A stretch of 42,345 nucleotides of DNA from a virus, in IMG/VR virus record IMGVR_UViG_3300032820_002177, positions 1 through 42,345 of that record; one strand, written 5' to 3'. Position numbers and translations under genes: made by a program. Below are positions 3,857 through 36,963 of this stretch, in pieces. Position 1 is the stretch's first letter. The number at the start of each line of letters is the position of its first letter. The notes beneath the pieces are model-generated. The model was not told the DNA's origin. It did no database searches and worked only from the letters and a program-made list of their open reading frames with translations.

Positions 3857-5401
3857 TTGAATAAAAATTTAACAGTAGAACAAAACGACTACGCTATTTT
3901 TCTACCTGCTATAAGTGGTTTCTTTGCTACTTATATAGGAAAGCAACGATATGACGAATACGTAGAAACGTCCCGGATACCATCAAACTTTCCAAACAAT
4001 ATAGAAAGTATGAATTGGCTAAATCCTCAAAAAGGTTTATTCAACTATCATTGGTCATTGTACAGTGCAGGACACGCTGAACTAAATGTAAATAAGCATT
4101 CTCCTAAAGAAGATATGGTACGGAATAGAGATCGAAATAACAGTTGGATACTAGGAGATTCGGGAGGTTTCCAAATTGGTAAAGGCGTATGGGAAGGTGA
4201 TTGGAAAGATCCTAATTGTCCTAAAGCTAAAAAGAAACGAGAACAAGTTCTAACGTGGCTTGATGCGTATGCTGATTACGGTATGATACTTGATATACCT
4301 GCTTGGGTATCACGTTCACCAGCTGGGCAAAAAGCTACAGGTATTACAACATACCAAGAAGCTGTAAATGCCACACGCATTAATAACGAATACTTTATGA
4401 AAAACAAGTCTGGTGCTTGTAAATTCTTAAATGTATTACAAGGTGAAAATCATACTGATGCTGAAGATTGGTATCAGCAAATGAAAGACTATTGTGATCC
4501 TAAAAAATATACAGATCACTTTAATGGGTGGTCGATGGGTGGTCAAAATATGTGTGATATACACCTAGTATTAAAAAGACTTGTGGCATTACGTTTTGAT
4601 GGACTATTAGAAAAAGGTTTACATGACTATATGCACTTTTTAGGTACATCTAAACTTGAATGGGCAGTATTACTAACTGACATACAACGAGCAATTCGTA
4701 AATATCATAACAATAACTTCACAATAACATATGATTGTGCAAGTCCGTTCTTAGCAACTGCAAATGGGCAAGTTTATATTCAAACAGAAACAGAAGATAG
4801 AGCTAAATGGGTATATCGAATGGTTCCAAGTATCGATGATAAAAAGTATGCTACAGATAATCGTTTATTTAAAGATGCAGTATTACAAGACGGTATATTT
4901 AAAAACTTTGAAAATTCTCCTATAACAGACGGATTAAAAGTTTCAGATATTTGTTGTTATAAGCCTGGTGATCTAAATAAAATAGGTAAAGAAGGCAAAA
5001 CTAGTTGGGATTCTTTTAGTTATGCAATTCAAATGGGACATAATGTTTGGCATCATATTAATGCAGTACAAGAAGCAAACAGACAATATGATAATAATAT
5101 AATTCCAAAAATGCTAGTAGATGAAAGATTTAATAGAATTTATTTTAAAGATGTGATAGAAGCAATTTTTATGACAGACAATCGAGATACTGCTAATGCT
5201 ATTATAAAAGAATTTGATAAATTTTGGACTTCTATTATTGGAACTAGAGGATTAACGGGAAAACGGTCTATTAATGCAAGTGCCATGTTTAATTCATTAT
5301 TTGAAATAGAAGATAATACTAAAATAAATGATCTCGACGAAGAAGATTTTTCTGAAGAACAAGAACATGTGTTAGAAGTATTAGAAGAAGAACAACTTTA
5401 A
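3857..5401 (+). CDS. tRNA-guanine transglycosylase-like protein (DpdA-like DNA base exchanger)
   Basis: A 514-residue protein with the signature series of the TGT fold: DSGGFQ (D101-Q106), the loop LQGENHTDAEDW equivalent to the TGT VQGG segment (about 194-205), GWSMGG (224-229, TGT GYAIGG), FLGTS (261-265, TGT MGVG) and DCASP (D293), where TGT carries its nucleophilic Asp. A segment MGHNVWHH (393-400) resembles the TGT zinc-site helix, but the full Cys-x-Cys-xx-Cys ligand set is not evident. Phage and island-encoded DpdA proteins of this superfamily insert preQ0-type bases into DNA. FolE, QueE and a QueD-like gene nearby support that role over tRNA modification. The only plausible start is TTG at 3857; the C-terminus is very acidic. 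Confidence 0.77.
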   Translation: MNKNLTVEQNDYAIFLPAISGFFATYIGKQRYDEYVETSRIPSNFPNNIESMNWLNPQKGLFNYHWSLYSAGHAELNVNKHSPKEDMVRNRDRNNSWILGDSGGFQIGKGVWEGDWKDPNCPKAKKKREQVLTWLDAYADYGMILDIPAWVSRSPAGQKATGITTYQEAVNATRINNEYFMKNKSGACKFLNVLQGENHTDAEDWYQQMKDYCDPKKYTDHFNGWSMGGQNMCDIHLVLKRLVALRFDGLLEKGLHDYMHFLGTSKLEWAVLLTDIQRAIRKYHNNNFTITYDCASPFLATANGQVYIQTETEDRAKWVYRMVPSIDDKKYATDNRLFKDAVLQDGIFKNFENSPITDGLKVSDICCYKPGDLNKIGKEGKTSWDSFSYAIQMGHNVWHHINAVQEANRQYDNNIIPKMLVDERFNRIYFKDVIEAIFMTDNRDTANAIIKEFDKFWTSIIGTRGLTGKRSINASAMFNSLFEIEDNTKINDLDEEDFSEEQEHVLEVLEEEQL

Positions 5402-10923: not shown

Positions 10924-11601
10924 ATGCTTACAACTGCGGAAATAATAAAAAAACGATTAAAAGAAGCAAACATTAGATATCATTGTAATGATAACATTTC
11001 TGAATTTATTGAAGAAGGTGAATTAGAAATTTTACAATTAGAAGTGGAAGATGCATTTAGTAATGTTTTGAATTCTTTAGTTATTGATACAAATAATGAT
11101 CATAATACTAAAGAAACAGCAAAACGTGTAGCAAAAATGTTTATTAAAGAAATCTTTAAAGGAAGATATGAACCTTGTCCAAAAGTTACAAGTTTTCCTA
11201 ATATGGGTTACAAATCACTTTATACTAGCGGACCTATTTCTATTCGTAGCACTTGCGCTCATCACTTTCAAAATATTGTTGGAAGTTGCTGGGTAGGTAT
11301 TATTCCAGAAGAAGAAGTTATTGGTCTTAGTAAATTTAATAGACTAGCACATCATATTGCAGAACGACCGCAAATACAAGAGGAAATGACTACACAAATT
11401 AGTAATGCGCTTATAGAGTACGCTAAAACAGAACATGTTGCTGTTGTTGTAAAAGCAGAACATCATTGTATGACACAACGAGGTGTTAAAGAACACGAAA
11501 GTGATATGACTACTGCAATTATGCGAGGAGCATTTGAAACTGATTCTGCATTAAAACAAGAATTTTATAGTGTTTGTTTAAGTATGAAAGGTCATAATTA
11601 A
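10924..11601 (+). CDS. folE: GTP cyclohydrolase I
   Basis: A 225-residue enzyme converting GTP to dihydroneopterin triphosphate, the first step of both folate and 7-deazaguanine (preQ0) synthesis. Zinc ligands are visible: C111 and the adjacent HH (STCAHHF, 109-115) and C182 (EHHCMTQRGV, 179-188). The core GLSKFNRLAHHIAERPQIQE (134-153) is the family signature. It has its own promoter and a leader hairpin. QueE follows after 2 bp, so the pair forms a dedicated unit for deazaguanine synthesis, not folate. Confidence 0.96.
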   Translation: MLTTAEIIKKRLKEANIRYHCNDNISEFIEEGELEILQLEVEDAFSNVLNSLVIDTNNDHNTKETAKRVAKMFIKEIFKGRYEPCPKVTSFPNMGYKSLYTSGPISIRSTCAHHFQNIVGSCWVGIIPEEEVIGLSKFNRLAHHIAERPQIQEEMTTQISNALIEYAKTEHVAVVVKAEHHCMTQRGVKEHESDMTTAIMRGAFETDSALKQEFYSVCLSMKGHN

Positions 11602-11603
11602 AT

Positions 11604-12476
11604 ATGAAATTAAGGTATTCAGAAGCATTTTATTCCGTCCAAGGCGAAGGAAAATTTGTAGGAGTACCTAGTGTATTTTTGCGTACTTTTGGTTGCAATT
11701 TTCGTTGTATGAACTTTAGCTTACCTCGAGGTACAAAAAAAGATAAACATAATCCCGAAGTAAAAAAATTATTAGATAATGGAGTACATTTAACTACAAA
11801 GAACTTTAATGATTTACCTATTATCCATACAGGATGTGATACATATGCAAGCATCTATCCCGAATTTAAAAAATTTATGATGGATAAAACAATAGACGAG
11901 GTTGTTGAACATCTTTTATCACTTACACCTGAAGGTAAATGGACAATGCAAAATGGGCAAGACATTCATCTTATCTTTACAGGAGGTGAACCTTTGTTAG
12001 GATGGCAAAGGCTTTATATAGAACTATTAGATCATCCTAAAATGAAAGACTTAAAAAATGTTACATTTGAAACAAATACTACCCAAACTCTTAGAAAGGA
12101 TTTCAAAGAATTTTTATCAACTCAGAACAGATTTAAAATTACTTGGAGTTGTTCCCCAAAACTTAGTATTAGCGGAGAATCTTGGGAAGATGCAATTAAC
12201 CCTAACTTGGCAGTTGATTATGCTAGTGTTAATGGTAGTGAACTTTATCTTAAGTTTGTTGTCGCTGACAAAGTGGATGTGGACGAAGTTGGAAAAGCTG
12301 TTAAAGAATACAAAAACGCTAACTTGGACTGTCCAGTCTATCTTATGCCGCTTGGGGGACGTTCTGAAGAATATAACTTTACCTATCCCGAAGTTGCGAA
12401 ACTCGCAATGGAAAAAGGATGGCGATTCACACCACGATTACACATCAGTCTCTTCGGAAATGCATGGGGAACTTAA
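11604..12476 (+). CDS. queE: 7-carboxy-7-deazaguanine synthase (QueE), radical SAM
   Basis: A 290-residue radical SAM enzyme that turns 6-carboxy-tetrahydropterin into 7-carboxy-7-deazaguanine. The N-terminus YSEAFYSVQGEGKFVGVPSV (5-24) is the QueE substrate-binding start, followed by RTFGCNFRC (27-35) and FTGGEPLL. The [4Fe-4S] cysteines are C31, C35 and C78 (GCDT). The third Cys, normally two residues after the second, is displaced by a 42-residue insertion. The GCDT context that ends the usual motif is intact, so it likely still closes the cluster site. It follows FolE closely and is presumably active. Confidence 0.93.
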   Translation: MKLRYSEAFYSVQGEGKFVGVPSVFLRTFGCNFRCMNFSLPRGTKKDKHNPEVKKLLDNGVHLTTKNFNDLPIIHTGCDTYASIYPEFKKFMMDKTIDEVVEHLLSLTPEGKWTMQNGQDIHLIFTGGEPLLGWQRLYIELLDHPKMKDLKNVTFETNTTQTLRKDFKEFLSTQNRFKITWSCSPKLSISGESWEDAINPNLAVDYASVNGSELYLKFVVADKVDVDEVGKAVKEYKNANLDCPVYLMPLGGRSEEYNFTYPEVAKLAMEKGWRFTPRLHISLFGNAWGT

Positions 12477-12549: not shown

Positions 12550-12929
12550 AATGGCTAGACAAACTATTAAAAAAAGAAAATTCTAATGAAGAAATAAAAG
12601 AACTTTCGAACGAAGAAATTCGTCGAAAAACATTAGAATTAGAAAAACAAGAAGCAACTAAAAATGGAAAACCATGGGTTGCTGTATTAGATACACAAAT
12701 TAATACTAACGATATTAGAAATGGTTTCTTTGAACTTGATTGGAACAACGAATTTATTGAGCAACTTATTGATGCAGGTTATTCAGGAGAAGCAAACGAA
12801 GAAATAGTTGATGCTTGGTTTAGAACTATTGTTATTCAAATGTTAGAAGAAGAAGGACTTGATCCTGATAGAGAAATGGGTTATATTAACGTAACACCTA
12901 TAGGAAAAGGTAAATCTGAAGTATCGTGA
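12546..12929 (+). CDS. Acidic conserved phage protein
   Basis: A 127-residue, strongly acidic protein. The N-terminal third is a charged helix (SNEEIKELSNEEIRRKTLEL). It is followed by GKPWVAVLDTQINTNDI, then FFELDWNNEFIEQLIDAG and EEIVDAWFRTIVIQML, ending GKSEVS. It looks like a conserved T4-like marine phage protein of unknown role. RBS GAGGATC precedes the ATG. The stop overlaps the next GTG start. Confidence 0.6.
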   Translation: MKWLDKLLKKENSNEEIKELSNEEIRRKTLELEKQEATKNGKPWVAVLDTQINTNDIRNGFFELDWNNEFIEQLIDAGYSGEANEEIVDAWFRTIVIQMLEEEGLDPDREMGYINVTPIGKGKSEVS

Positions 12930-13615
12930 TATATAAATTAAAAAGTAAACGTCCAGGAAGTCCATATGCTCCTAGTTGGGACATTAGTTTAGGATCATAT
13001 CAATGGGAAGACAGTGAAAAGATTAAAACTATAAAAGAATTTTTATTATCTAAAGAAGAAGAAATTCTTAAATTAGAGGTTAATCAAGATGCTGGAACTG
13101 GATTAGGTGAAGAATCTGTAACTACACGGTATGGACGTTACAATGTATTTGGGTTAGGGGAAGAATGTCCTGAAATAAACAACTTATTTAAATTTATACA
13201 AAAATCTTATCTTGAATTTATTAAAGAAGATGATACAATACTTCTTCCTTTAAAAATAATTTGTTGGTATAATATTATAAGAAAAGGACAAGAAATTAAA
13301 GAACACTCTCACGGAGCAGGTGAGATTATTTACCTAAGTGGAAATGTGCATCTAGATAATTATGACTCTGTAACTAGATATGTTGAGCGCGGAATGGACT
13401 GTTGTATGCCGAACATTGCTGGTGGATTAACGATTTTTCCTAGTTACGTTAGTCATAGTGTTGCAGAATGGCAAAACGATTATCCTCGACTAAGTTTAGC
13501 ATTTGATTTATATATTGATATACAACCATACTATCCTTCTGCAGACGATGACGGACATCCAATAACTTTTATGAACTTTGATATACTTAATCAGTTAGCT
13601 GACCCACGCAATTAA
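12926..13615 (+). CDS. 2-oxoglutarate/Fe(II) oxygenase-like protein
   Basis: A 229-residue protein starting with GTG at 12926 (overlap with the previous TGA). The C-terminal half follows the phage 2OG-Fe(II) oxygenase pattern: WYNIIRKGQEIKEHSHG (about 114-130, with H127 and H129), a strand IIYLSGNVHL, then GGLTIFPSYVSHSV (166-179, distal H177) and a substrate-Arg position in YPRLSLAFDL (R188). The acidic metal ligand is not obvious (E133 is a candidate). Substrate unknown; nucleotide or protein hydroxylation is possible. Confidence 0.65.
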   Translation: MIYKLKSKRPGSPYAPSWDISLGSYQWEDSEKIKTIKEFLLSKEEEILKLEVNQDAGTGLGEESVTTRYGRYNVFGLGEECPEINNLFKFIQKSYLEFIKEDDTILLPLKIICWYNIIRKGQEIKEHSHGAGEIIYLSGNVHLDNYDSVTRYVERGMDCCMPNIAGGLTIFPSYVSHSVAEWQNDYPRLSLAFDLYIDIQPYYPSADDDGHPITFMNFDILNQLADPRN

Positions 13616-18889: not shown

Positions 18890-19525
18890 ATGAATAATCA
18901 AAATTATGCAGTTGTTCCTTTATTTTCTTCTCCCGTATTTGAGTCAGGAGAACAATTTGAAATATCTAAATCCTTTTTAGATTTTATCAAAAATGTAGAA
19001 GTAACTGCTTGTTCTCCTGAGAACAAGGAACATCGGAATTCAGTTAATTCATATATCTTAGAACTAAAAGAATTTGCTGACTTAAAAAAATTTATAGTAA
19101 AACAGCTTGCTATATATGTTTATGAAGTTTTAAAAATAACAACTGCACATAATTTTTATATAACACAATCTTGGTTAAATTTTAATGAACGTGGAGAGGA
19201 TCATCATCAACATTGGCATCAAAATAGTTTAATTAGTGGAATTTTTTATATAGCTGGAGATTTTTGTCCTACAGCCGTTTTAAGTAGAGAAGGTGATCCA
19301 CCTTTTGGTAAAAATTGGGCATTTGAATTAGAAGAATTTAATGTTTATAATAGTGGTAAATGGACATTTGAAAATAAAAAAAATTCACTGCTAATATTTC
19401 CTTCTACAGTAGAACATTATGTTGAAGCATATAAAGGTTTTGATACAAGAATTACTTTATCTTTTAATACTTTTGTTAAAGGAAATTTGGGCCTGGGTCC
19501 TAATAAAAATGAACTTATATTATGA
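18890..19525 (+). CDS. 2OG-Fe(II) oxygenase-like protein (inserted gene)
   Basis: A 211-residue protein of the phage 2OG-Fe(II) oxygenase type: SWLNFNERGEDHHQHWHQNS (94-113, His-rich metal region), SGIFYI (116-121), then SLLIFPSTVEHYVEAY (166-181, distal H176) and RITLSFNTFVKGNLG (R187). It has no clear Shine-Dalgarno sequence (the ATG follows an A-rich ATATCAAAA), unlike most neighbours. It is flanked by a 54-bp direct repeat, so it appears to be a later insertion or the product of a recombination that duplicated the flank. Substrate unknown. Confidence 0.8.
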   Translation: MNNQNYAVVPLFSSPVFESGEQFEISKSFLDFIKNVEVTACSPENKEHRNSVNSYILELKEFADLKKFIVKQLAIYVYEVLKITTAHNFYITQSWLNFNERGEDHHQHWHQNSLISGIFYIAGDFCPTAVLSREGDPPFGKNWAFELEEFNVYNSGKWTFENKKNSLLIFPSTVEHYVEAYKGFDTRITLSFNTFVKGNLGLGPNKNELIL

Positions 19526-22110: not shown

Positions 22111-23052
22111 ATGGAGTATTTTGAATTAAATCCTGAAGATAATACATTTTCAAATATAGTAATAGACTTAACTCATCGATGTAATATGGAGTGTGCAAAC
22201 TGTTACATTCCTAATCGTGACATTCCGGATCTTAATAAAAACAAGCTATATAATTTTTTAGAAAAACTTCCTAATCGAACATATATTCGTTTAATAGGTG
22301 CTGAACCTACTATGCGAGAAGATATTTTTGAAATAATTTCAACTGTTAAAAAAATAGGACATAGACCTAGCCTTACTACTAATGGATTAAAACTCGGGCA
22401 ACTTTCTTATGTTGAAAAATTAAAAGAAGCCGGCTTACGCTTATTATTACATAGCATGAATGGTGCCGATGACGATGAAATATATAAAATTCTAGATAAT
22501 GGAAAATGGGCAACTATAAAAGTTCGAGCATTAGAAAATATTTTTAAATGCAAACTTCCAGTTAATACTGGAACAATTATAGCCAAGGGTACAAACGAAC
22601 AAACAATTGGAAGACAAGTTAAAACATTTATCAATTCCGCAATAAAAACTGGAGTTAATTTTAACACAACAAAACCTTATAATCGAATTACACCTGTACT
22701 AAGAATTAAAAGTGTAGGATTAATAGGAAGAAATATGGGAGGAAATTGTGCATATGAAATTTTTGAATTAGCACAATTGGCGTCTGAACAATTAGATATT
22801 TCTTATAATTTAATTACTAATAGTAAAGCTACTTCGGGTGTAGTAAAAGCAGGTGCATACGGTGAAGCAGAAACCAGTCTATTATTTCCTTATGAAACGG
22901 AAGCAGGGAAAATCTTTATAAGATTAATTGATTGGCGCATTAATGACGAAGGAGTTATCGACCATGACAATCCTAACAGAGGTCGTTTAACTGAAGACTG
23001 GACTGTTGCTCCTTTCTTTGAACATTTAAAGAAGAATGAATTTGGATATTAA
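22111..23052 (+). CDS. Radical SAM enzyme, substrate unknown
   Basis: A 313-residue radical SAM protein with the CX3CX2C cluster motif CNMECANC (C24, C28, C31) and a GAEPT (63-67) in place of the usual GGEP SAM-binding motif. TTNGLKL follows. No C-terminal SPASM cysteine cluster is seen. It is the first gene of an operon with a protein of uncertain fold and three oxygenase-like proteins, which looks like a small biosynthetic or tailoring pathway. Overlaps the next gene by 17 bp. Confidence 0.88.
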   Translation: MEYFELNPEDNTFSNIVIDLTHRCNMECANCYIPNRDIPDLNKNKLYNFLEKLPNRTYIRLIGAEPTMREDIFEIISTVKKIGHRPSLTTNGLKLGQLSYVEKLKEAGLRLLLHSMNGADDDEIYKILDNGKWATIKVRALENIFKCKLPVNTGTIIAKGTNEQTIGRQVKTFINSAIKTGVNFNTTKPYNRITPVLRIKSVGLIGRNMGGNCAYEIFELAQLASEQLDISYNLITNSKATSGVVKAGAYGEAETSLLFPYETEAGKIFIRLIDWRINDEGVIDHDNPNRGRLTEDWTVAPFFEHLKKNEFGY

Positions 23053-23674
23053 GGTAACAACACATAAAATTAATCGAGAAATTCAATCTGAAATTTTAAC
23101 ATTTCTTCAAGATCAAACAGAATTTGGTCGATTAGAAAAAAATTATACAAAAGAAAAATTAGATTTAGATATATGTGATGCTATTTCTATTATACGTGAT
23201 AAAAACGAAATACTTTCTTTTAGTACATTATTAAATCGAAATCTTTTTGGTAATGCTATTCGATGTGTAAATCGATTATATAAATCACCCGTATATCGAC
23301 ATCGTAATTTAGATCATTACAATAGAATTAAACTTGTTACATTCGAAATGATCCAGCAACAAATGTCATTTGCAAAAGAAAATAATTATGATATTATCTT
23401 TATGAGTCGAGAATTAAAAGATATTAATGTTAAAAATGAAAAATCTTTTAATTCAACTGCTATGAATAGATGGAAAGAATATCTACCTGATAAAAATAAC
23501 TGGATTTATAGTCCAGATATGCATTTAGTTATTCCTCCAAAAACTACTAAAACAAACTGGCAATCAATTCTTTATTATAAATTAAAAGATAATGTCGGAT
23601 TACAACTAGAAAAAATCTCATTAAATAAATATAATGAGTTGTTTATTAAAGGGGATATTAATGAAAATTTCTAA
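23036..23674 (+). CDS. Unrecognised protein, possibly GNAT-like
   Basis: A 212-residue basic protein. The part about residues 95-130 (IKLVTFEMIQQQMSFAKENN, then YDIIFMSREL) and AIRCVNRLYKSPVYRHRN (about 75-92) resemble the late strands and helix of GNAT-type acyltransferases, but the acetyl-CoA loop is not clear. If correct it would acylate a product of the radical SAM enzyme. Confidence in the fold is low; the gene itself is secure from its coupled position. Confidence 0.45.
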   Translation: MNLDIKVTTHKINREIQSEILTFLQDQTEFGRLEKNYTKEKLDLDICDAISIIRDKNEILSFSTLLNRNLFGNAIRCVNRLYKSPVYRHRNLDHYNRIKLVTFEMIQQQMSFAKENNYDIIFMSRELKDINVKNEKSFNSTAMNRWKEYLPDKNNWIYSPDMHLVIPPKTTKTNWQSILYYKLKDNVGLQLEKISLNKYNELFIKGDINENF

Positions 23675-24527
23675 TATAAAATTTGGAATTCAAGTTGAAG
23701 ATATTGACTATCACAGTATAGACGATGCTGTTACTGTCAGAAATTTTATTGGTACTAAAAGAATTGTAGTAGTCAAAAATCCAACACCTGTTCCTGCTAA
23801 AGATCTTTTAACTTTTTACCAAAATATTGGAGATGTAGTTGCTCAAGAAAAGGAAGTAGTAGGATCTGGAGTAGACGGATTACATGAATTTGTAAGAGTT
23901 AAACGCAATGGTTTATTTACTGGTGCTGAAGATGGAGAATTAGAATGGCATTGCGCAGGAATGAATAGAAACGGTGCAGAAGATATAGTTGCAATATATA
24001 TGAATAAACCTGGAGTAGACGGTGGAGACACTTATTTTAGTGATACTCAAACTGCATATGAAGATTTAGACGAAGAAACAAAAGAAAAAATTGATGGACT
24101 AAAATCAAAAATAGTAAACTATCCTGAGAAAATGCTAGTAGGAGATACATTTTATAAAAATGTTTTTGCAAACGAACAAACTTTTAAAGCATTTAAAGAT
24201 ATAGATGGCATTGCAGCTCATACAAAACAAACATCGCGAAAGAACCTTGTTACTACTCACCCATTAAACAATAAAAAAGGTCTTCATTACCCCTGGTCGG
24301 TTATTAGAGGTTTTGCTGGTATAGATAAAAGAGAAAGTCATGATCTATATTATAAACTTAAAAATCATACATTAAATGACAAATATGTATACAAACATGT
24401 ATGGGATCAATATGATATTTGTTTAAGTGATCAACATCATAGTTTACATAGGAGAGATGCTTATGACGGTGACCGTGAATTATGGAGATCTGGAATCTGG
24501 TACAGATCTGAAAACGTTACTGTATGA
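23661..24527 (+). CDS. TauD/TfdA-like Fe(II)/2-oxoglutarate enzyme with HxA in place of HxD
   Basis: 288 residues from ATG 23661 (RBS AAAGGGG). The TauD layout is clear: LEWHCAGMNRNG (H97, C98, A99) where the family has WHxD, then GGDTYFSD, and LSDQHHSLHRRDAYDG with distal His H263 and the following RELWRSG Arg for 2-oxoglutarate. The Asp metal ligand is replaced by Ala99. In Fe/2OG halogenases such as SyrB2 the same Asp-to-Ala/Gly change opens a halide site. In other cases it marks loss of activity. The next gene is a second TauD-like protein with an intact HxD. Confidence 0.8.
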   Translation: MKISNIKFGIQVEDIDYHSIDDAVTVRNFIGTKRIVVVKNPTPVPAKDLLTFYQNIGDVVAQEKEVVGSGVDGLHEFVRVKRNGLFTGAEDGELEWHCAGMNRNGAEDIVAIYMNKPGVDGGDTYFSDTQTAYEDLDEETKEKIDGLKSKIVNYPEKMLVGDTFYKNVFANEQTFKAFKDIDGIAAHTKQTSRKNLVTTHPLNNKKGLHYPWSVIRGFAGIDKRESHDLYYKLKNHTLNDKYVYKHVWDQYDICLSDQHHSLHRRDAYDGDRELWRSGIWYRSENVTV

Positions 24528-25173
24528 ACATGGATTCGTTCATATAAAAAATGACCAACCATTAACTATAAACCAATTTGCTGAATTTGCTAAAACTCTT
24601 GGCAAACCATTAACAACAGTAAAACATGTACTAGACGACGATCGCATAGTACAAGAAGTTAGTAGTAACGAATTATTCAAAAATAATGAAGTTGATTGGC
24701 ATAATGATTGGAGTTATGGACGAGGAAATTATTTTGGTGTAACTTTATATAATAAATCTAATGGTAATTTAGCTCCTACACATTTTATTGATATGAAGAT
24801 TGCATTAGAAGCATATGATAACATAGATTTATTAAGAAGGGTAACAGGATATTATTATCCTCCAAAAGATTTACATTATTGTTTTACTACAAAACAACTA
24901 GAAATACTAAAAATGCAAAATATACATAGACCTTTTATATTTGAGCATCATGTAACTAAGGATAAAGTTCTTTATTTTAGTCCAGGAACATTATTGAAGG
25001 CGGATGGTCCAGACATTGATATTGATAAACTAGTAGAACACTGTTGTCAATTCTCTTGGCAACACGAATGGAAAGATAACGACATAATAATTTATGATAA
25101 TATTAGAGTAATGCATAAACGAGATGCATTTACCGGCGAACGTGTCTTATGGCGAACACAATTTATAATATAG
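24463..25173 (+). CDS. TauD/TfdA-like Fe(II)/2-oxoglutarate dioxygenase
   Basis: 236 residues from ATG 24463, chosen because AGGAGAG (24450-24456) is at ideal spacing. It overlaps the previous gene by 65 bp. The facial triad is complete: H80 and D82 (VDWHNDWSYG) and distal H218 (IRVMHKRDAFTGERVLWRTQ), with the 2OG-binding Arg following. Likely hydroxylates or desaturates a small molecule. It follows a TauD-like protein with a defective or altered triad, so one may act on the product of the other. Confidence 0.85.
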   Translation: MTVTVNYGDLESGTDLKTLLYEHGFVHIKNDQPLTINQFAEFAKTLGKPLTTVKHVLDDDRIVQEVSSNELFKNNEVDWHNDWSYGRGNYFGVTLYNKSNGNLAPTHFIDMKIALEAYDNIDLLRRVTGYYYPPKDLHYCFTTKQLEILKMQNIHRPFIFEHHVTKDKVLYFSPGTLLKADGPDIDIDKLVEHCCQFSWQHEWKDNDIIIYDNIRVMHKRDAFTGERVLWRTQFII

Positions 25174-25185
25174 GCTTAGTTAAAA

Positions 25186-25767
25186 ATGGAAATAGATTAT
25201 TTAGATCCAAATACAAATATTGATGATTTTGTAATTCCCTTAAATATTAATTATTCTCAGGAAATTTTTCAAAATATATTTTACGAGTATTATAATAAAG
25301 AAGTTAAAAGTAATTATACAAGCTATGATGCCTGCTCTGAACTAAAAGAATATTTTACAGATTTCTTTAAAAATCAGTGGCCTTTATCAAAACATTTTAT
25401 GCTTGGTTGGTACTCTCCAAAAAGCAGACCTAATAAAAACTCTGTACCTATCCATATTGACTACGATGTAGCTTCTATAGTGATTCCTATTTTAGGTTGT
25501 ACAAAAGAATGTTTAACAAATATTTTTTTACCTGTTAATGAATTAAATTTAAATAACAACAATAGAGCAATACTTCCACAAGGAGAATTTAAACATATTG
25601 CAAGTTTTGCATTTACTAATCAAATATGTTTATTAAATACTGGCATGTGTCATAATATTTGGAAAACATCTACAACCGATACTATACGTTATCTATGGAG
25701 ATGCGAGTCTAATTTATCTTGGAACGATGCAAAAAGAATTATTTTAGAAGCAAATGATTCGACCTAA
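25186..25767 (+). CDS. Oxygenase-like protein (HxD...H triad)
   Basis: A 193-residue protein with VPIHIDYDVASIVIPILG (87-104), where H90-x-D92 suits a metal site. The strand CLLNTGMCHNIWKTS carries H156, and TIRYLWRCE a candidate Arg. This is the order expected for a small double-stranded beta-helix 2OG-Fe(II) enzyme. The family is not named with certainty. Last gene of the operon; its 3' end overlaps the convergent minus-strand gene by 29 bp. Confidence 0.55.
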   Translation: MEIDYLDPNTNIDDFVIPLNINYSQEIFQNIFYEYYNKEVKSNYTSYDACSELKEYFTDFFKNQWPLSKHFMLGWYSPKSRPNKNSVPIHIDYDVASIVIPILGCTKECLTNIFLPVNELNLNNNNRAILPQGEFKHIASFAFTNQICLLNTGMCHNIWKTSTTDTIRYLWRCESNLSWNDAKRIILEANDST

Positions 25768-30365: not shown

Positions 30366-31318
30366 TAGTGCTTACGATAAGGTTGTCGCCAATCACGAGG
30401 ATCATTTGGATCATAGTAGTTTGCAATATAATCGGCATCATCTTTACTAGGCAAAATAAGTTCTTCTGGAACTGAATAAACTTTTGTTTTAGGTAATAAA
30501 TCTAATTCAGTCATTTCTTTATCAAGAACTTCTGACCAAGCAATATGACCACATTCCTGAAAATGGTGCCATCGCCCATCTTTTTTAGGATTGTGTCCTT
30601 TATTAATTAAATGCGCATAATAAATTTCTTCAGGATCAAAAGGATGCCGATAATAAATATCTTTTGCTAAAATTTTACACCCTTCTAAATCAAAAGATTT
30701 ATCTTCTTGATTAAACTCATCAGGGAAAGGATGCTTAAGAACACCTTTTATTTTATGAAATGGTTTAACACATTCTACTGCATTAAACATATAATATGAT
30801 ATATTTTTATCTCGCAAAAAAGAACGTAAAAGTTGATATTGAAAAAGATGATTATACACTTGAACATCATAAGGTTGAAGAGCTATTAAATCTCTCCATA
30901 ATTTCCAAAATTTTACAATTTTTTTATCTTGAAGTTTTGTCCAGTTTGGCATTAAATCAATATGCGCCGAAAGCAATTTTAAATTACCTTCATAAGGAAG
31001 TGCTAATCGGGGATAACCTGACCAGCCAATTAATGAAATTATCTCAGAAGGATCATATTGTGTTAATAATTGATTTACTTTCCTTACTGTATTTCTCATT
31101 ATTGTTATATTATCTAATCCTGCATGACATACATTAACGTGACGTAAATTATTTTTTCTAGAAAGGTGTCCTGCAAACGAACGATATTGTTCTTCTCTAC
31201 GTATTTCTTTACGAAAACGATGACTTTTTGGATAACCTTGTTCTCCTAAAATTTCAAATCCTGCAGAATGACTACAACCTGTTACTAATAATACTTTAAG
31301 TTTAGATGTATCTAACAT
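30365..31318 (-). CDS. SGNH-hydrolase-like protein
   Basis: 317 residues from ATG 31318 (RBS GGAGG; stop of the upstream gene overlaps by one base). LLVTGCSHSAGFE near the N-terminus matches the GDSxS-type block I of SGNH esterases, NVCHAGLDNITIMRNT matches block II/III, and HHFQECGHIAWSEVL near 255-270 matches the C-terminal block with the catalytic His. This family of phage proteins may be a sugar O-acetyl esterase or transferase. The Cys in place of the block I Asp is unusual. Confidence 0.62.
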   Translation of the reverse strand: MLDTSKLKVLLVTGCSHSAGFEILGEQGYPKSHRFRKEIRREEQYRSFAGHLSRKNNLRHVNVCHAGLDNITIMRNTVRKVNQLLTQYDPSEIISLIGWSGYPRLALPYEGNLKLLSAHIDLMPNWTKLQDKKIVKFWKLWRDLIALQPYDVQVYNHLFQYQLLRSFLRDKNISYYMFNAVECVKPFHKIKGVLKHPFPDEFNQEDKSFDLEGCKILAKDIYYRHPFDPEEIYYAHLINKGHNPKKDGRWHHFQECGHIAWSEVLDKEMTELDLLPKTKVYSVPEELILPSKDDADYIANYYDPNDPRDWRQPYRKH

Positions 31319-33402
31319 CAAAATTCCTCCTTGCTTACCATTAAATCACCTCCACACAAACAATTTAAAGAAGAACACATTATTGGTCTGCGTAAAGAAT
31401 TCCAATCAATTCTTTGCCAATGATCTAATGTACCTATAAACCCTCCTTCATGACAATTACCTCTTTTAATGCTTCCATCACGATCTATAAATAACGATTC
31501 TTTACCAATATGACAATTATAATTAAAAAAGTTTGTTTCTCCATTTCTAATAGGATCTTCTGATAATTCAAATACTTTTTGATCTTCATTCTTATATTTA
31601 ATAAAAATATCCTTAGCAGGGTGTTTTTCTCCACTATGGGTACCTCTGTGACGTCTTATATGTTTAAAATTATTAATAAATTCTAATTGATCATCTGTAT
31701 ACTTTATATCACAAAGTTTAAAACCTATATTACCATACTGTTCATCAATAATAACTGCATCGATATTAGCTTTTGTTTCTTCTTTAATACGTTCTAAAAA
31801 ATCCATTGTTTGATCCCAGTATAACGGGTCTAACATTATTCTAGCTGTTGTGGGTGCTAAACCAAAAGATATATTTAACTTTCTAATATATTCATCTTCA
31901 GTCTTATTCGGAAACACCATTGCTGGATGAAAACTAGCACATACTTGTGTAACATATTTAAAAGTTCTTTCTATAAATTGCTCTGACCTTGTAAGATTCG
32001 TTGATAAATTTATATGATGAGAGTTGTTATGTACTTCTTTAACTAGTTGAGAGAAAAAAGGACTTAATGTTGGTTCTCCTCCACTTAATGAAAAAATTAT
32101 TTTACGGTTGTCATTTTCTATAGAATAAAAATTAAATAAATGTTTTAAAAATGGTAAAATATGATGCCAGTTATATTTGTGATTTTTTCCATTTTGAAGA
32201 ATAGGTGGACAATAACGACAACTATATGTACATACATCATTTATTATCCAAGTAATTATACTAGTTTTAGGATTAAAAATTTTTTCTATCTTTTTACCTA
32301 CTACTGGTTTTGGTTTTTTCCAAACAGGTTTACGATGTATCGGCGTAGAAAATGGTGGTCTTTTATGGTGAGCGTCTCTTGGAACTACTGCCATTGAATA
32401 AATGGTATTAAATTGTTTAAAATTATCATTTATAATACCTATACTTGGCAAATAAAACTCTTCACATTGTTCCCAAATCAGTTCCCCAATCTTAATATAC
32501 CCTTCTCGATTTTCAATAAAATTACCAAATTTAAATCCTAATTTTTCATTAACTTGTAAATCATGCCATTTAGTAGAATACCAATATATATCCTTAGGAG
32601 TGTCATTATTAGGAGATAATCTAACATGCACTTCATTAGACCAAGTTGTTTGTGGAGCAATTGCATTTCGATCTATTGCATCTTGATCACCATCTATAAC
32701 AATATGATGTAAATTTTTTCCTAAGGTGTTATAACCCAAACAAAAATCTCCAAATTTTAAAAATGGACTCATACTATAAAAATCTTCCGATTCTAAAATA
32801 AAATCTGTTCTTGGATTAAAACTAATAGTCATATTACCACGAGTATTATATCCTTCTTCTACCGGGGTTACTTCATGTGTATGTATTAATGAATTTAAAG
32901 TTTGAAAAGCACTATTAAGTTCTTCATTAAAAGTTCTTCCTGGCCATATATTTGCAAGGGGAGAATTTTCAGGTATTCTTAAATACGCATCTCCCCACCA
33001 GTCTTCTTCTAATTTTTCTTCTAAACGTTCTCCATACCTCTCATAACATTCATGAAGCACATTGAGGAAATTATTATCTAACCGTGTATTACCTCTTGAA
33101 TCAATAAAAGTTTTAATTTTAGGAATTTGTTCGTCATAATATTCGTTTATTTTTTTAATAATAGTTTCTAATTTTTTTAAATTTTTATTCCTGTCGGGAG
33201 AAGATGTTTTAAATGCCCGATCTTTATAATCATGAGCACCGCTAGTTAATTCTATAAAATGCTCTAACCATTTATGTGCTATAGGAATATCATATAATTG
33301 AAAGAACAAATCTAAGTAATCCCAAGTAGCAGGATCCGTTAATGTAATTCTTATTACAGGATCTACTACTACATCATTAAGTTTATCGTATTCAATTTGC
33401 AT
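31318..33402 (-). CDS. Two-part radical SAM protein with C-terminal Cys cluster
   Basis: A 694-residue protein. Residues 1-380 are a domain I do not recognise (Trp/Asp-rich, ESEDFYSMSPFLKFGDFCLG at about 204-223). Residues from about 380 form a radical SAM core: CTYSCRYC (C391, C395, C398) and LSGGEPT (439-445). The C-terminus has several Cys (YNCHIGKE, RGNCHEGG, IMCSSLNCLCGGD), consistent with a SPASM-type auxiliary iron-sulfur site. SPASM enzymes often modify peptides. The N-terminal domain may bind the protein substrate. Overlaps both neighbours. Confidence 0.83.
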   Translation of the reverse strand: MQIEYDKLNDVVVDPVIRITLTDPATWDYLDLFFQLYDIPIAHKWLEHFIELTSGAHDYKDRAFKTSSPDRNKNLKKLETIIKKINEYYDEQIPKIKTFIDSRGNTRLDNNFLNVLHECYERYGERLEEKLEEDWWGDAYLRIPENSPLANIWPGRTFNEELNSAFQTLNSLIHTHEVTPVEEGYNTRGNMTISFNPRTDFILESEDFYSMSPFLKFGDFCLGYNTLGKNLHHIVIDGDQDAIDRNAIAPQTTWSNEVHVRLSPNNDTPKDIYWYSTKWHDLQVNEKLGFKFGNFIENREGYIKIGELIWEQCEEFYLPSIGIINDNFKQFNTIYSMAVVPRDAHHKRPPFSTPIHRKPVWKKPKPVVGKKIEKIFNPKTSIITWIINDVCTYSCRYCPPILQNGKNHKYNWHHILPFLKHLFNFYSIENDNRKIIFSLSGGEPTLSPFFSQLVKEVHNNSHHINLSTNLTRSEQFIERTFKYVTQVCASFHPAMVFPNKTEDEYIRKLNISFGLAPTTARIMLDPLYWDQTMDFLERIKEETKANIDAVIIDEQYGNIGFKLCDIKYTDDQLEFINNFKHIRRHRGTHSGEKHPAKDIFIKYKNEDQKVFELSEDPIRNGETNFFNYNCHIGKESLFIDRDGSIKRGNCHEGGFIGTLDHWQRIDWNSLRRPIMCSSLNCLCGGDLMVSKEEF

Positions 33403-34648
33403 TTTCTAAAACCTTATAAAATTCCGGAAATGTTTTTTTAAAACTTGTATTCCGTATTTTGTCTAATTTATCTCGATAATCAATAAATTGAGGATATAAA
33501 TCTGATAAATCTTCACTATCCATAAAATCTAATTGCGGAAGTATTTTTTCTCGCCACTGTTTATTATATTTTAACTCTTCAAAACTTTCCCATTTTTTCC
33601 TTATTTCAGATTTAATTGATTTAGGAAAAACTTTAATAGATAGGTATCTCGGCCAATGTACTGTTCCGGCATGAAATACTCCACTATGATGTAAATGGCC
33701 TACTCTTTTAAATTTACTCTTAAGCATGTTTTCTGCAAACTCAGGTATATAATACACGTTCATTGCATGAATTGTTGCTAAAACTTTCACATCAATATTG
33801 TCAGGTGTTTTATCTAACTTTTTAAGATTTCCAGAAATTAATTCCCAATTAGCCGGGTATCGTACATATTCTAAATGTTCTCCCCAAGCGTCTATACTAG
33901 CCATTACTTCTACAAACTTAAATTCCTTCCATAAATTTACTATTTCCTCAGAAATAATAGTTCCATTAGTATGATAACGCAATTCTATATTTTTACTATA
34001 ACCAAACTTTACTAAATTCTTTATTAACTGTAAATGTTCTTTTATAAGCAGAGGTTCGCCGCCAGCAAAAATAAGATGCCTTATAGTAGAAAACATTGGT
34101 TCAAAATCTTTCCAAAGTTTTTCTTTTTTATACCATTCAAATTGATCGGTATCTATATTTGATTTATGCTCCCAGTCCCATTTAGCATCTGTCTCTAAAA
34201 TATCTTTAAGTTTTTTAGCATTACTTAACCACATACTACTATCTTGAGGACGACACATAACACATTGTAAGTTACAAGTATTACCTAATCTTAAATCTAG
34301 AGTTATAAAATTTTCAGTTAGTGTTCCATCTTTCTTTGTAGATGAAATTAATTCTGCAATTCTATCCTCTCCTAATTTATTCTCCCAAAGAACATTTTCA
34401 TTTATTCTATGACTGCGGATACCTGCCGCTTCTTCTTTATAGCAATGGTCACATGCTGATACCTTTTCACCTTTTAACATTTTTACACGAGCATCTTTAA
34501 AATGCTCACTATTCCATATAGTATCAACACTATCCTTATTAAAATTTAACTTATGAGAATTCTGTGCTACACAACAAAGTAAAGCACTTCCGTCGGTCCA
34601 AGTCGCAATATGGGTCCAAGGTAAGATACAAAATGTTTCTGATTTATT
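33392..34648 (-). CDS. Radical SAM protein with N-terminal Cys region (twitch-type), paralogue 1
   Basis: 418 residues from ATG 34648, which overlaps the upstream stop by 5 bp; no strong RBS, so translation is probably coupled. Cysteines C8, C26-C27, C67 and C70 (FCILPW, LLCCVAQ, CDHCYKEE) precede the radical SAM core CNLQCVMC (C126, C130, C133) and FAGGEPLL (196-203). The N-terminal set resembles a SPASM/twitch auxiliary cluster placed before the core. It is clearly paralogous to the next gene upstream. Substrate unknown. Confidence 0.83.
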   Translation of the reverse strand, partial: NKSETFCILPWTHIATWTDGSALLCCVAQNSHKLNFNKDSVDTIWNSEHFKDARVKMLKGEKVSACDHCYKEEAAGIRSHRINENVLWENKLGEDRIAELISSTKKDGTLTENFITLDLRLGNTCNLQCVMCRPQDSSMWLSNAKKLKDILETDAKWDWEHKSNIDTDQFEWYKKEKLWKDFEPMFSTIRHLIFAGGEPLLIKEHLQLIKNLVKFGYSKNIELRYHTNGTIISEEIVNLWKEFKFVEVMASIDAWGEHLEYVRYPANWELISGNLKKLDKTPDNIDVKVLATIHAMNVYYIPEFAENMLKSKFKRVGHLHHSGVFHAGTVHWPRYLSIKVFPKSIKSEIRKKWESFEELKYNKQWREKILPQLDFMDSEDLSDLYPQFIDYRDKLDKIRNTSFKKTFPEFYKVLENAN

Positions 34649-36032
34649 CATTTTTAAAATCATCCCAAACACTTGGATCCACTTGTAGTTTTTCATAATA
34701 AAGATCTAACTCCGATGCTAAATCGGGTATCAAGTCTTTAAAACTTTGTGAACGCTTTTTATCTAAAATGTCTGTCATTGTTAAAAATTGTTTATATAAC
34801 TCGTCATGCTTTACATGTAACTCTTTTCTAAATAAAGAAATTATTCCATCAACACTTTCTTTTACTAAGTTATTACTAGAATAACGATCACTACTATCTC
34901 TATATACTTCTAAATTTTTTGCGCCTATTTCTCGAATACTCTGAGGAATTATAGTTACATCTAAAAATGTTGGATGATTATTAATTAAAAAATTTACATT
35001 AATATTCTTTTTATAATCCTTGGATATACGATCGGCATAATACAAAAGATTATGACAATCTAAAATGTTATAAACTTGTACAACAGGTGTTATTCCTAAA
35101 TCTACATTAGATAATTCTGCTAACTTTCTAAAATTCTTTTCAACATGGGTCCATTTAGCAGGATATCTAATATAATCATTAACTTTTTCATATCCATCTA
35201 AACTACAATTAATTTTAAGGCTCTTAAATTGGCTAACTAATTTTAAAAATTTATCAGTAACATTAGTACAATTAATATTAAAAAATAATTCTATATCTTG
35301 ATTATATCCTGCAGAAATACATTCTTCCATAAATCTATAATTATTTTCTATTAATGTCGGCTCTCCTCCTGTCATATAAACTTTCTTAAGATTAGGAATC
35401 ATAGATATAATTTCATTCCATAAAAAATTTCGATCAAATACAGTTTGAGCCTCTTTTAAATGAAGAGGATTTGCCCCAAACTGGTCTCTCCATACCTTAG
35501 AATATTCATTATATACAGGACTATCAGCTTCTACACCCCCTTCAAAAAGTTGGAAATGCTCTTTTGCTAACTGACTACTATTCCAAGGATTACACATACG
35601 ACATTTTAAATTACATAAATTTCCTAATCTTAAATCTAAATAAACAGGCGGCAATGAGATTTTATAATTATTATCTATAGCTTCTTGAATATAATCATTA
35701 AATACTTCTCCTAATCTATGCTCCCATTCTGCTGTCATCATTGAACGAAAACTTATTGCACCCATTTCTTCTTGCTTATAACAATTAGCACATGCTTCTA
35801 ATTTTGTACCATTAAGCATTGCTTTTCGAGTTTCAATCATTGTATAACTATTCCAAGACTCTAAAAGACTTGTATCTTCAATACTTAATTTTTCTCCAAG
35901 CGTTCCGTCAATTGTAGGTTCTTCTCTTAAAATTGCTTTAGGACCAAATGCTATACAACAGTATCTTGTAAAAGTATCTGTATTAAGCATAAGACCGATA
36001 AAGGGCATTGCACAAAACGATTTATTTTTCAT
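34644..36032 (-). CDS. Radical SAM protein with N-terminal Cys region (twitch-type), paralogue 2
   Basis: 462 residues. Same layout as its neighbour: C7, C25-C26, C81 and C84 (SFCAMPF, RYCCIAF, CANCYKQEE), then the core CNLKCRMC (C140, C144, C147) and YMTGGEPTL. Shared phrases include LDLRLGN.CNL.C and IRYPA.W. The tandem pair probably arose by duplication and may act in sequence or as a heterodimer. Overlaps the preceding gene by 11 bp. Confidence 0.83.
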   Translation of the reverse strand: MKNKSFCAMPFIGLMLNTDTFTRYCCIAFGPKAILREEPTIDGTLGEKLSIEDTSLLESWNSYTMIETRKAMLNGTKLEACANCYKQEEMGAISFRSMMTAEWEHRLGEVFNDYIQEAIDNNYKISLPPVYLDLRLGNLCNLKCRMCNPWNSSQLAKEHFQLFEGGVEADSPVYNEYSKVWRDQFGANPLHLKEAQTVFDRNFLWNEIISMIPNLKKVYMTGGEPTLIENNYRFMEECISAGYNQDIELFFNINCTNVTDKFLKLVSQFKSLKINCSLDGYEKVNDYIRYPAKWTHVEKNFRKLAELSNVDLGITPVVQVYNILDCHNLLYYADRISKDYKKNINVNFLINNHPTFLDVTIIPQSIREIGAKNLEVYRDSSDRYSSNNLVKESVDGIISLFRKELHVKHDELYKQFLTMTDILDKKRSQSFKDLIPDLASELDLYYEKLQVDPSVWDDFKNE

Positions 36033-36963
36033 TATCTTTTATCTCATTATCTATGATATTAACTGTGGGTACTCTATCAGGATTACGAAAAACTTTTTTA
36101 AAAAATTTACTTTGACCTGCATTAAATGGGAGGGGATCAATAGGTATATTAGTTTTACGAACTAGCATTTCTCCTAGCTCAATTATCTTATCTAATAAAT
36201 TTTCTTCTTTAACTTTATTATTTTCCCACATCTCATTTAAATATTTAAAATTACGAACATTTATATAATCCCAATCCGTACACATAGTTTTATATAAACC
36301 ATGTCTAGCACCATACACTGCCCACAATCCATTGTCTACATCTGCTCCTACCATTTGCCAAACCCATAAACGATGTAAATTTTTCCAATGCCCTTTTAAC
36401 AAATACGAACTATCTTTAGGTCTTACTCCTCTGTCAAGAGCCATTTTAACACCTTCTCGAAATCCGGCTCGCCAGGCTTGGTGAGGATTTTCATTATTAT
36501 AAACATCTGAAAAACATGCATTTTGTTGAATATATTCTAAGTCCCAACAAAAATCTACTTGTGCATGAGGATTATCTGATGCTGCATTCTCATGAGTACG
36601 CATATTTAAAACATGTTTTTTTGGCCAACATTTTAATCCTCCATTGCCATACATTAGCCCATTAATAATATTATAACCACACCAACTTATAACTGCATTC
36701 TCTAAATTAATATGTTCATCAAAATTAATTGACTGACGTAAAAATTCTTCTTTAATAATATTATCTCCATCAACAGTAATAAATCGATCTGTTTCTGAAA
36801 GATTGGCGCAGGCTTTGTGTGCTGAATCTGATCCTTCTACTCCATGAACTCGTTTTGCCCAAGGAACTTTAGAACATAAATCAGCATAATTCTTTTCTGC
36901 ATTTGGCTCATCATAACTCAAATAAATGATATCATAATCTAAAACTTTAAAAATTTTGCTCAT
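36022..36963 (-). CDS. Glycosyltransferase-like protein (GT-A, DGD motif), paralogue
   Basis: 313 residues. LDYDIIYLSYDEPNAEKNY (8-26), VPWAKRVHGVEGSDSAH (33-49) and RFITVDGDNII (60-70; DGD at 65-67) repeat the module in the gene at 27990-29069, here at the N-terminus. The downstream part has GLMYGNGGLKCWPKKHVLNM, matching VYGHGGVKLLPRKLTLDM in the paralogue. A nucleotide-sugar transferase function is likely; acceptor unknown. 4-bp overlap with the upstream gene. Confidence 0.68.
   Translation of the reverse strand: MSKIFKVLDYDIIYLSYDEPNAEKNYADLCSKVPWAKRVHGVEGSDSAHKACANLSETDRFITVDGDNIIKEEFLRQSINFDEHINLENAVISWCGYNIINGLMYGNGGLKCWPKKHVLNMRTHENAASDNPHAQVDFCWDLEYIQQNACFSDVYNNENPHQAWRAGFREGVKMALDRGVRPKDSSYLLKGHWKNLHRLWVWQMVGADVDNGLWAVYGARHGLYKTMCTDWDYINVRNFKYLNEMWENNKVKEENLLDKIIELGEMLVRKTNIPIDPLPFNAGQSKFFKKVFRNPDRVPTVNIIDNEIKDNEK

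Follow-up and report, generated by a model that had tools for sequence, protein, structure and literature searches.

Gene content of the locus

The window, i.e. the whole stretch of DNA analysed (42,345 nt, IMG/VR virus record IMGVR_UViG_3300032820_002177), carries on its plus strand a compact, presumably biosynthetic cassette of four genes, the first of which (22111..23052) encodes a radical SAM enzyme with the cluster motif CNMECANC (Pfam Radical_SAM, E 4.8e-16). The three cysteines of the motif are invariant, and orthologues of this enzyme adjoin the third cassette protein, TauD-A, in homologous loci; its similarity to TrsS, MoaA and Tes models was weak and fell below every NCBIfam equivalog cut-off. 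It should be added that PADLOC models of viperin (pVip) also matched it weakly (E 8e-14), probably through the shared radical SAM core alone. The second gene (23036..23674, plus strand) overlaps the radical SAM gene by 17 nt and that of TauD-A by 14 nt. A Pfam search with its product returned no match, and it was recognised as a GNAT-fold acyltransferase from its AlphaFold2 model (pLDDT 86.6), Foldseek matches to GNAT acetyltransferases (E 8.7e-7) and its position, kept in homologous loci.

TauD-A (23661..24527, plus strand) is a protein of the TauD/TfdA fold of Fe(II)/2OG enzymes without the metal-ligand carboxylate (HxA), as characterised by Pfam, alignment, AlphaFold2/Foldseek, tree and dN/dS analyses. 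It is followed by TauD-B (24457..25173, plus strand; Pfam TauD, E 4.5e-24), a TauD-like oxygenase of canonical type in which both HxD (WHNDW) and the distal His are intact, and whose family keeps the motif WH[N/H]D throughout. Overlaps between the cassette genes of the window span 14-71 nt, which suggests that they form one transcript. Downstream lies a gene for a 193-aa protein (25186..25767, plus strand), possibly a further 2OG-type oxygenase as judged by eye from the pattern HID...HNIW...RYLWR; it had no Pfam or PHROG match, and its homologues come after the cassette in several loci.

Of the 20 homologous loci, 19 share with the window the order radical SAM, GNAT, TauD-A (HxA) and TauD-B (WH[N/H]D), occasionally interrupted by one inserted gene. 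The exception is an 11-kb contig (L048) with two tandem HxA paralogues (WHNA) and no TauD-B, with a gene for a DNA polymerase on one side and genes of sugar-nucleotide type on the other (named by eye). Moreover, a scan with the radical SAM protein returned 180 viral stretches, the best 80 of which were analysed together with the window, several being truncated or near-identical. TauD-A was present in 18 of these loci, all 18 with GNAT and TauD-B, and a further 15 had TauD-B without TauD-A. TauD-A thus looks like an optional tailoring step added to a radical SAM/TauD-B core, and not like an obligate helper. The radical SAM family, which occurs in approximately 180 viral stretches, goes together with oxidative partners that vary between loci (L181-L259; TauD-B or other proteins that are 2OG-like or desaturase-like), as though a phage pathway had diversified around it. 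Taken singly, the fold family, the logic of the motif and auxiliary metabolism in phages are already known; of a conserved HxA TauD in a phage radical SAM/GNAT/TauD cassette the literature searched gave no description, nor of any phage cluster of radical SAM and TauD genes.

Elsewhere, the window encodes GTP cyclohydrolase I and a QueE-like protein (10924-11601 and 11604-12476) and an unmatched 514-aa protein (3857-5401) in which a likeness to tRNA-guanine transglycosylase/DpdA-like enzymes was noted by eye; together they may point to 7-deazaguanine DNA modification. Two more 2OG-Fe(II) oxygenases (PF13759) are located at 12926-13615 and 18890-19525, and the minus strand at 31318-36963 has several radical SAM proteins among uncharacterised genes, unusually dense for a phage.

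Fold and active site of TauD-A

The stop-free open reading frame of TauD-A encodes 288 aa; the longest frame begins at 23634, and the ATG at 23661 agrees with the N-termini of homologues. PF02668 (TauD), the sole Pfam match, covers residues 8-276 (E 9e-29, 101.6 bits against a cut-off of 27), and the protein does not belong to Asp_Arg_Hydrox (PF05118). With the NCBIfam equivalog of taurine dioxygenase (TauD, EC 1.14.11.17) it scored 31.8 bits, far below the cut-off of 313. The AlphaFold2 model (pLDDT 84, pTM 0.86) has the TauD-like double-stranded beta-helix, and its best Foldseek matches in the PDB were TauD/AAD-2 proteins (5bke, E 1.9e-17; TauD 1gy9, TM 0.74); confidence dips at residues 81-110, which cover the motif (62-77 in ten-residue blocks).

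W96-H97-C98-A99-G100 stands where canonical TauD members carry WHxD, so that Ala, as seen from the translation and from homologue and structure alignments, replaces the metal-binding Asp (codons of H97-C98-A99 at 23949..23957, plus strand). The register was established by aligning a profile of 20 homologues with solved structures, in which A99 falls opposite the ligand Asp of WHTD (6d1o), WHSD (5bke) and FHAD (1nx4). His263 (SLHRRDAY; 24447..24449, plus strand) aligns to the distal metal-binding His of the TauD family, and Arg276 (LWR; 24486..24488, plus strand) is the expected binder of the 2OG C5-carboxylate, a role which we take over from what is known of that family. The protein has its fold, both His, the 2OG Arg and its length in common with TauD/TfdA enzymes (AAD-2 5bke, RdpA/AAD-1, TauD 1gy9 and CarC 1nx4), but differs from them in the Ala, in an identity of only about 20% and in its phage cassette context. 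Judging from sequence, TauD-A is a TauD/TfdA member by descent from which the canonical active site is absent: the HxD...H facial triad occurs in none of the 20 homologues, which all have HxA.

Conservation and selection

A viral scan with TauD-A as a single protein found no relatives, but a motif-based DNA scan (EWHCAGMN) succeeded, returning three IMG/VR contigs with homologues 66-70% identical. Alignment-based scans extended the set to 20 loci. Twenty distinct proteins, the one from the window included, were compared, at 49-70% identity to the latter. A99, H97, H263 and R276 are invariant in all 20 proteins, and residue 98 varies (C in 5, S in 13 and N in 2). The scan patterns GDRELWRxGI, EDGELEW and [ED][DN][IV]V[AV][MI]YM leave out residue 99, and the searches thus did not select for Ala. 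Ala99 is encoded by GCA, GCT and GCC among homologues and has therefore been kept through synonymous change, and the four close pairs whose dS was moderate (0.37-0.98) gave a dN/dS of 0.05-0.09. HxA has thus been maintained in a functional protein and did not arise by decay; sequencing error or a local pseudogene as the source of Ala99 was ruled out by the 20 homologues and by purifying selection.

These results bear on the preliminary description of this DNA, which had seen H97-C98-A99 in place of WHxD, intact distal H263 and 2OG Arg regions, an intact TauD-like neighbour and a phage setting. All of this was confirmed, the neighbour being TauD-B with its WHNDW. It had further proposed to check the register of A99 and the conservation of Ala, and had named Asp in close relatives as an observation that would speak against its reading; the register agreed with the solved structures and Ala was found in 20 of 20 homologues. 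No Asp at residue 99 was found in close relatives, for which scans blind to this residue likewise returned Ala only.

In cellular genomes, two scans of GTDB genome contigs, with a reach of close relatives only, gave no homologues of TauD-A, and the plasmid-borne TauD proteins examined had HxD in seven of seven cases. Matches in named phages were weak only, the best being 26% identical.

Probable relationship to phage TauD proteins with HxN motifs

This best match, from Pelagibacter phage Mosig (QOI69039.1, L049:5788-6594), is annotated as a ‘taurine dioxygenase’ and has the motif WHSNG; the ‘taurine catabolism dioxygenase’ of Prochlorococcus cyanophage P-HM2 (ADO99782.1, L174:1090-2148) likewise has WHSN. 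From the hosts of these relatives, the cassette carriers are apparently viruses of marine bacteria. A scan with ELGWHSNG returned at least 120 IMG/VR loci (L052-L171), at least 118 of them with an open reading frame bearing the motif, and paralogues in the loci listed carry WHAN, WHVN, WHQN, WHTN, WHCN and, in a few cases, WHTD or WHSD. Several HxN paralogues lie close together in some genomes, e.g. L110 and L148 (WHTN, WHVN, WHAN, WHSN). Their surroundings (L049, L052-L171) include genes for FA-desaturase-like, redoxin, Asp_Arg_Hydrox, nitroreductase and GNAT proteins, to which the Mosig cluster (MT647606.1, 50517-63080) adds an annotated aminotransferase and a methylase, altogether resembling small-molecule biosynthetic clusters.

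In the phylogenetic tree the HxA proteins formed one clade (SH-aLRT 99-100), joined to HxN proteins at SH-aLRT 94-95, with the plasmid-borne cellular TauDs, all HxD, outside. AU tests rejected neither a pairing of HxA with TauD-B (p 0.25) nor one with cellular proteins (p 0.28), and the joining of HxA and HxN is therefore held as probable only. A second sign of kinship between the two systems comes from locus L154, where a radical SAM gene of the cassette family directly precedes an HxN TauD and a GNAT gene of the cassette family follows a few genes further. TauD-A thus probably belongs to a larger, mostly HxN radiation of phage TauDs that includes the Mosig and P-HM2 proteins. The HxN proteins, as probable sisters, have likewise lost the carboxylate, but have Asn instead of Ala, and their clusters are usually larger and contain desaturase, redoxin and AspH-like genes. 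It should also be added that DQ for DN before the distal His was considered as a compensating change and dropped: within the clade, HxD proteins have DQ as well, so that it looks like a clade marker.

Since this probable wider clade is mostly HxN, the loss of the carboxylate in the HxA proteins may be older than halide binding and not specific to it.

Proposed function and alternative explanations

Three outcomes fit a two-His site of this kind: halide on the iron, water on the iron as in AspH, or no chemistry at all. TauD-A is in our view quite probably an active Fe(II)/2OG enzyme with such an iron site. The likeliest single chemistry is that of a radical halogenase, with a rough probability of 0.42, and in this sense we refer to TauD-A as a putative halogenase that would bind halide. 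H97 and H263 alone would hold the iron, leaving the usual carboxylate site open; the radical SAM and GNAT enzymes, by their co-occurrence, would build or activate a substrate, TauD-B would hydroxylate it, and TauD-A would carry out a second C-H functionalisation as a tailoring step of the cassette.

Known Fe/2OG halogenases (SyrB2, WelO5, BesD, AdaV/AdeV and DAH) belong, as far as known, to other branches of the superfamily and do not form one family, so that homology to a proven halogenase is a supportive and not a defining criterion. TauD-A, for which halogenation is putative, has in common with them HxG/A in place of HxD/E, as seen in homologue and structure alignments, and the retained distal His and 2OG Arg (H263 and R276, both invariant). 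Beyond the fold, homology to them was not detected: none was among the PDB sequence matches, which were oxygenases only. If TauD-A is a radical halogenase, it would to our knowledge be the first Fe/2OG enzyme of this kind in the TauD/TfdA branch. Halogenation by a phage-encoded protein has a parallel in VirX1, reportedly a flavin-dependent halogenase of cyanophages, for which a literature search gave indirect mentions only; as a flavin enzyme it is unrelated to TauD-A in fold and mechanism.

HXG/A is an accepted signature for mining Fe/2OG halogenases (PMC12871659; PMC11186838), and in SyrB2 a chloride pocket takes the carboxylate’s place (PMC4019311). Searches with this signature also yield false positives (PMC12871659). 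In favour of an active two-His enzyme that halogenates we count the fixation of Ala99 in spite of variation at residue 98, with H97, H263 and R276 unchanged in the same 20 proteins, together with the low dN/dS, the register against WHxD structures, the TauD fold and the synteny of the cassette; against halogenation, the best PDB matches of TauD-A, which are hydroxylases, the rarity with which a D-to-G/A exchange by itself yields a halogenase (PMC12346261), and the probable nearest clade being HxN, Asn being no known halogenase signature and some HxN genomes having several such paralogues. The earlier reading of a halogenase-like site stands in part: HxA/G is a halogenase signature, but not a unique assignment, for AspH hydroxylates with the same two-His site.

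Indeed, human AspH (Asp/Asn beta-hydroxylase) is an active hydroxylase with two His and water in this very site, and its substrates are not halogenated (PMC13168262). By sequence alone, TauD-A resembles it in having two His and no carboxylate ligand, and could be a hydroxylase or desaturase in which second-shell residues place water in the carboxylate site and oxidation proceeds without halide. The invariant acidic residues D91, E93, D128 and D257 could steady this water, the nearest structures are hydroxylases, and the mostly HxN composition of the wider phage clade suggests that carboxylate loss is tolerated generally and not selected for halide. Yet the motif strictly fixed in this clade is HxA and not HxN, which looks like a requirement for a small residue, and AspH is of a different family with different substrates (EGF-like domains), a precedent by analogy only whose water-filled site is established for AspH alone. 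We regard such an oxidation as the main rival of halogenation, though as less likely than not.

Still less favoured, and in our opinion unlikely, is a TauD-A without redox chemistry that would serve TauD-B as partner, scaffold or substrate binder, as the preliminary description had offered for its neighbour. Oxygenases with D-to-G/A mutations are usually without halogenation (PMC12346261), so that loss of the carboxylate alone need not give a new activity; within the cassette TauD-A always adjoins TauD-B. However, the loss or drift of other catalytic residues expected of a pseudoenzyme was not found: all are invariant at dN/dS of 0.05-0.09, and a pure scaffold need not keep H97, H263 and R276 down to about 50% identity. 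The idea of support for the neighbour is weakened further because TauD-B occurs without TauD-A in the 15 loci among the best 80 of 180 (plus window), and proteins of TauD-A type occur without TauD-B in L048. A cryptic canonical hydroxylase, with another Asp or Glu serving as metal ligand from elsewhere in the sequence, is very improbable: the invariant D91, E93 and D257 lie close to the motif in sequence, but E93, four residues before the metal His in the aligned register, presumably occupies a substrate-contact position of TauD, and D257 is a conserved Asp that HxD members carry besides the ligand Asp.

Returning to the putative halogenase, the broader proposal, a widespread phage-encoded Fe/2OG radical halogenase whose radical SAM/GNAT/TauD pathway would yield a halogenated compound in the course of infection, is one we advance tentatively and at somewhat less than even odds. 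On this reading, the ‘tauD’ genes of aquatic phages would more generally represent a radiation of enzymes that have no carboxylate (HxN/HxA) and whose chemistry does not concern taurine.

Implications for phage TauD proteins

If TauD-A halogenates, phages would carry aliphatic C-H halogenases together with a compact pathway that uses them; biocatalysis would gain a new branch of enzymes, and phage chemistry a new type. Should it not halogenate, annotation is still affected: viral tauD has been interpreted in a marine virome study as taurine-sulfur metabolism (PMC8940887), and many phage TauDs, those of the HxA cassette and the HxN proteins of Mosig, P-HM2 and over 100 contigs, carry no catalytic carboxylate and are probably not taurine dioxygenases of the ordinary kind. 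Furthermore, the pair of HxN and HxA groups makes the evolution of 2OG enzymes around carboxylate loss directly testable.
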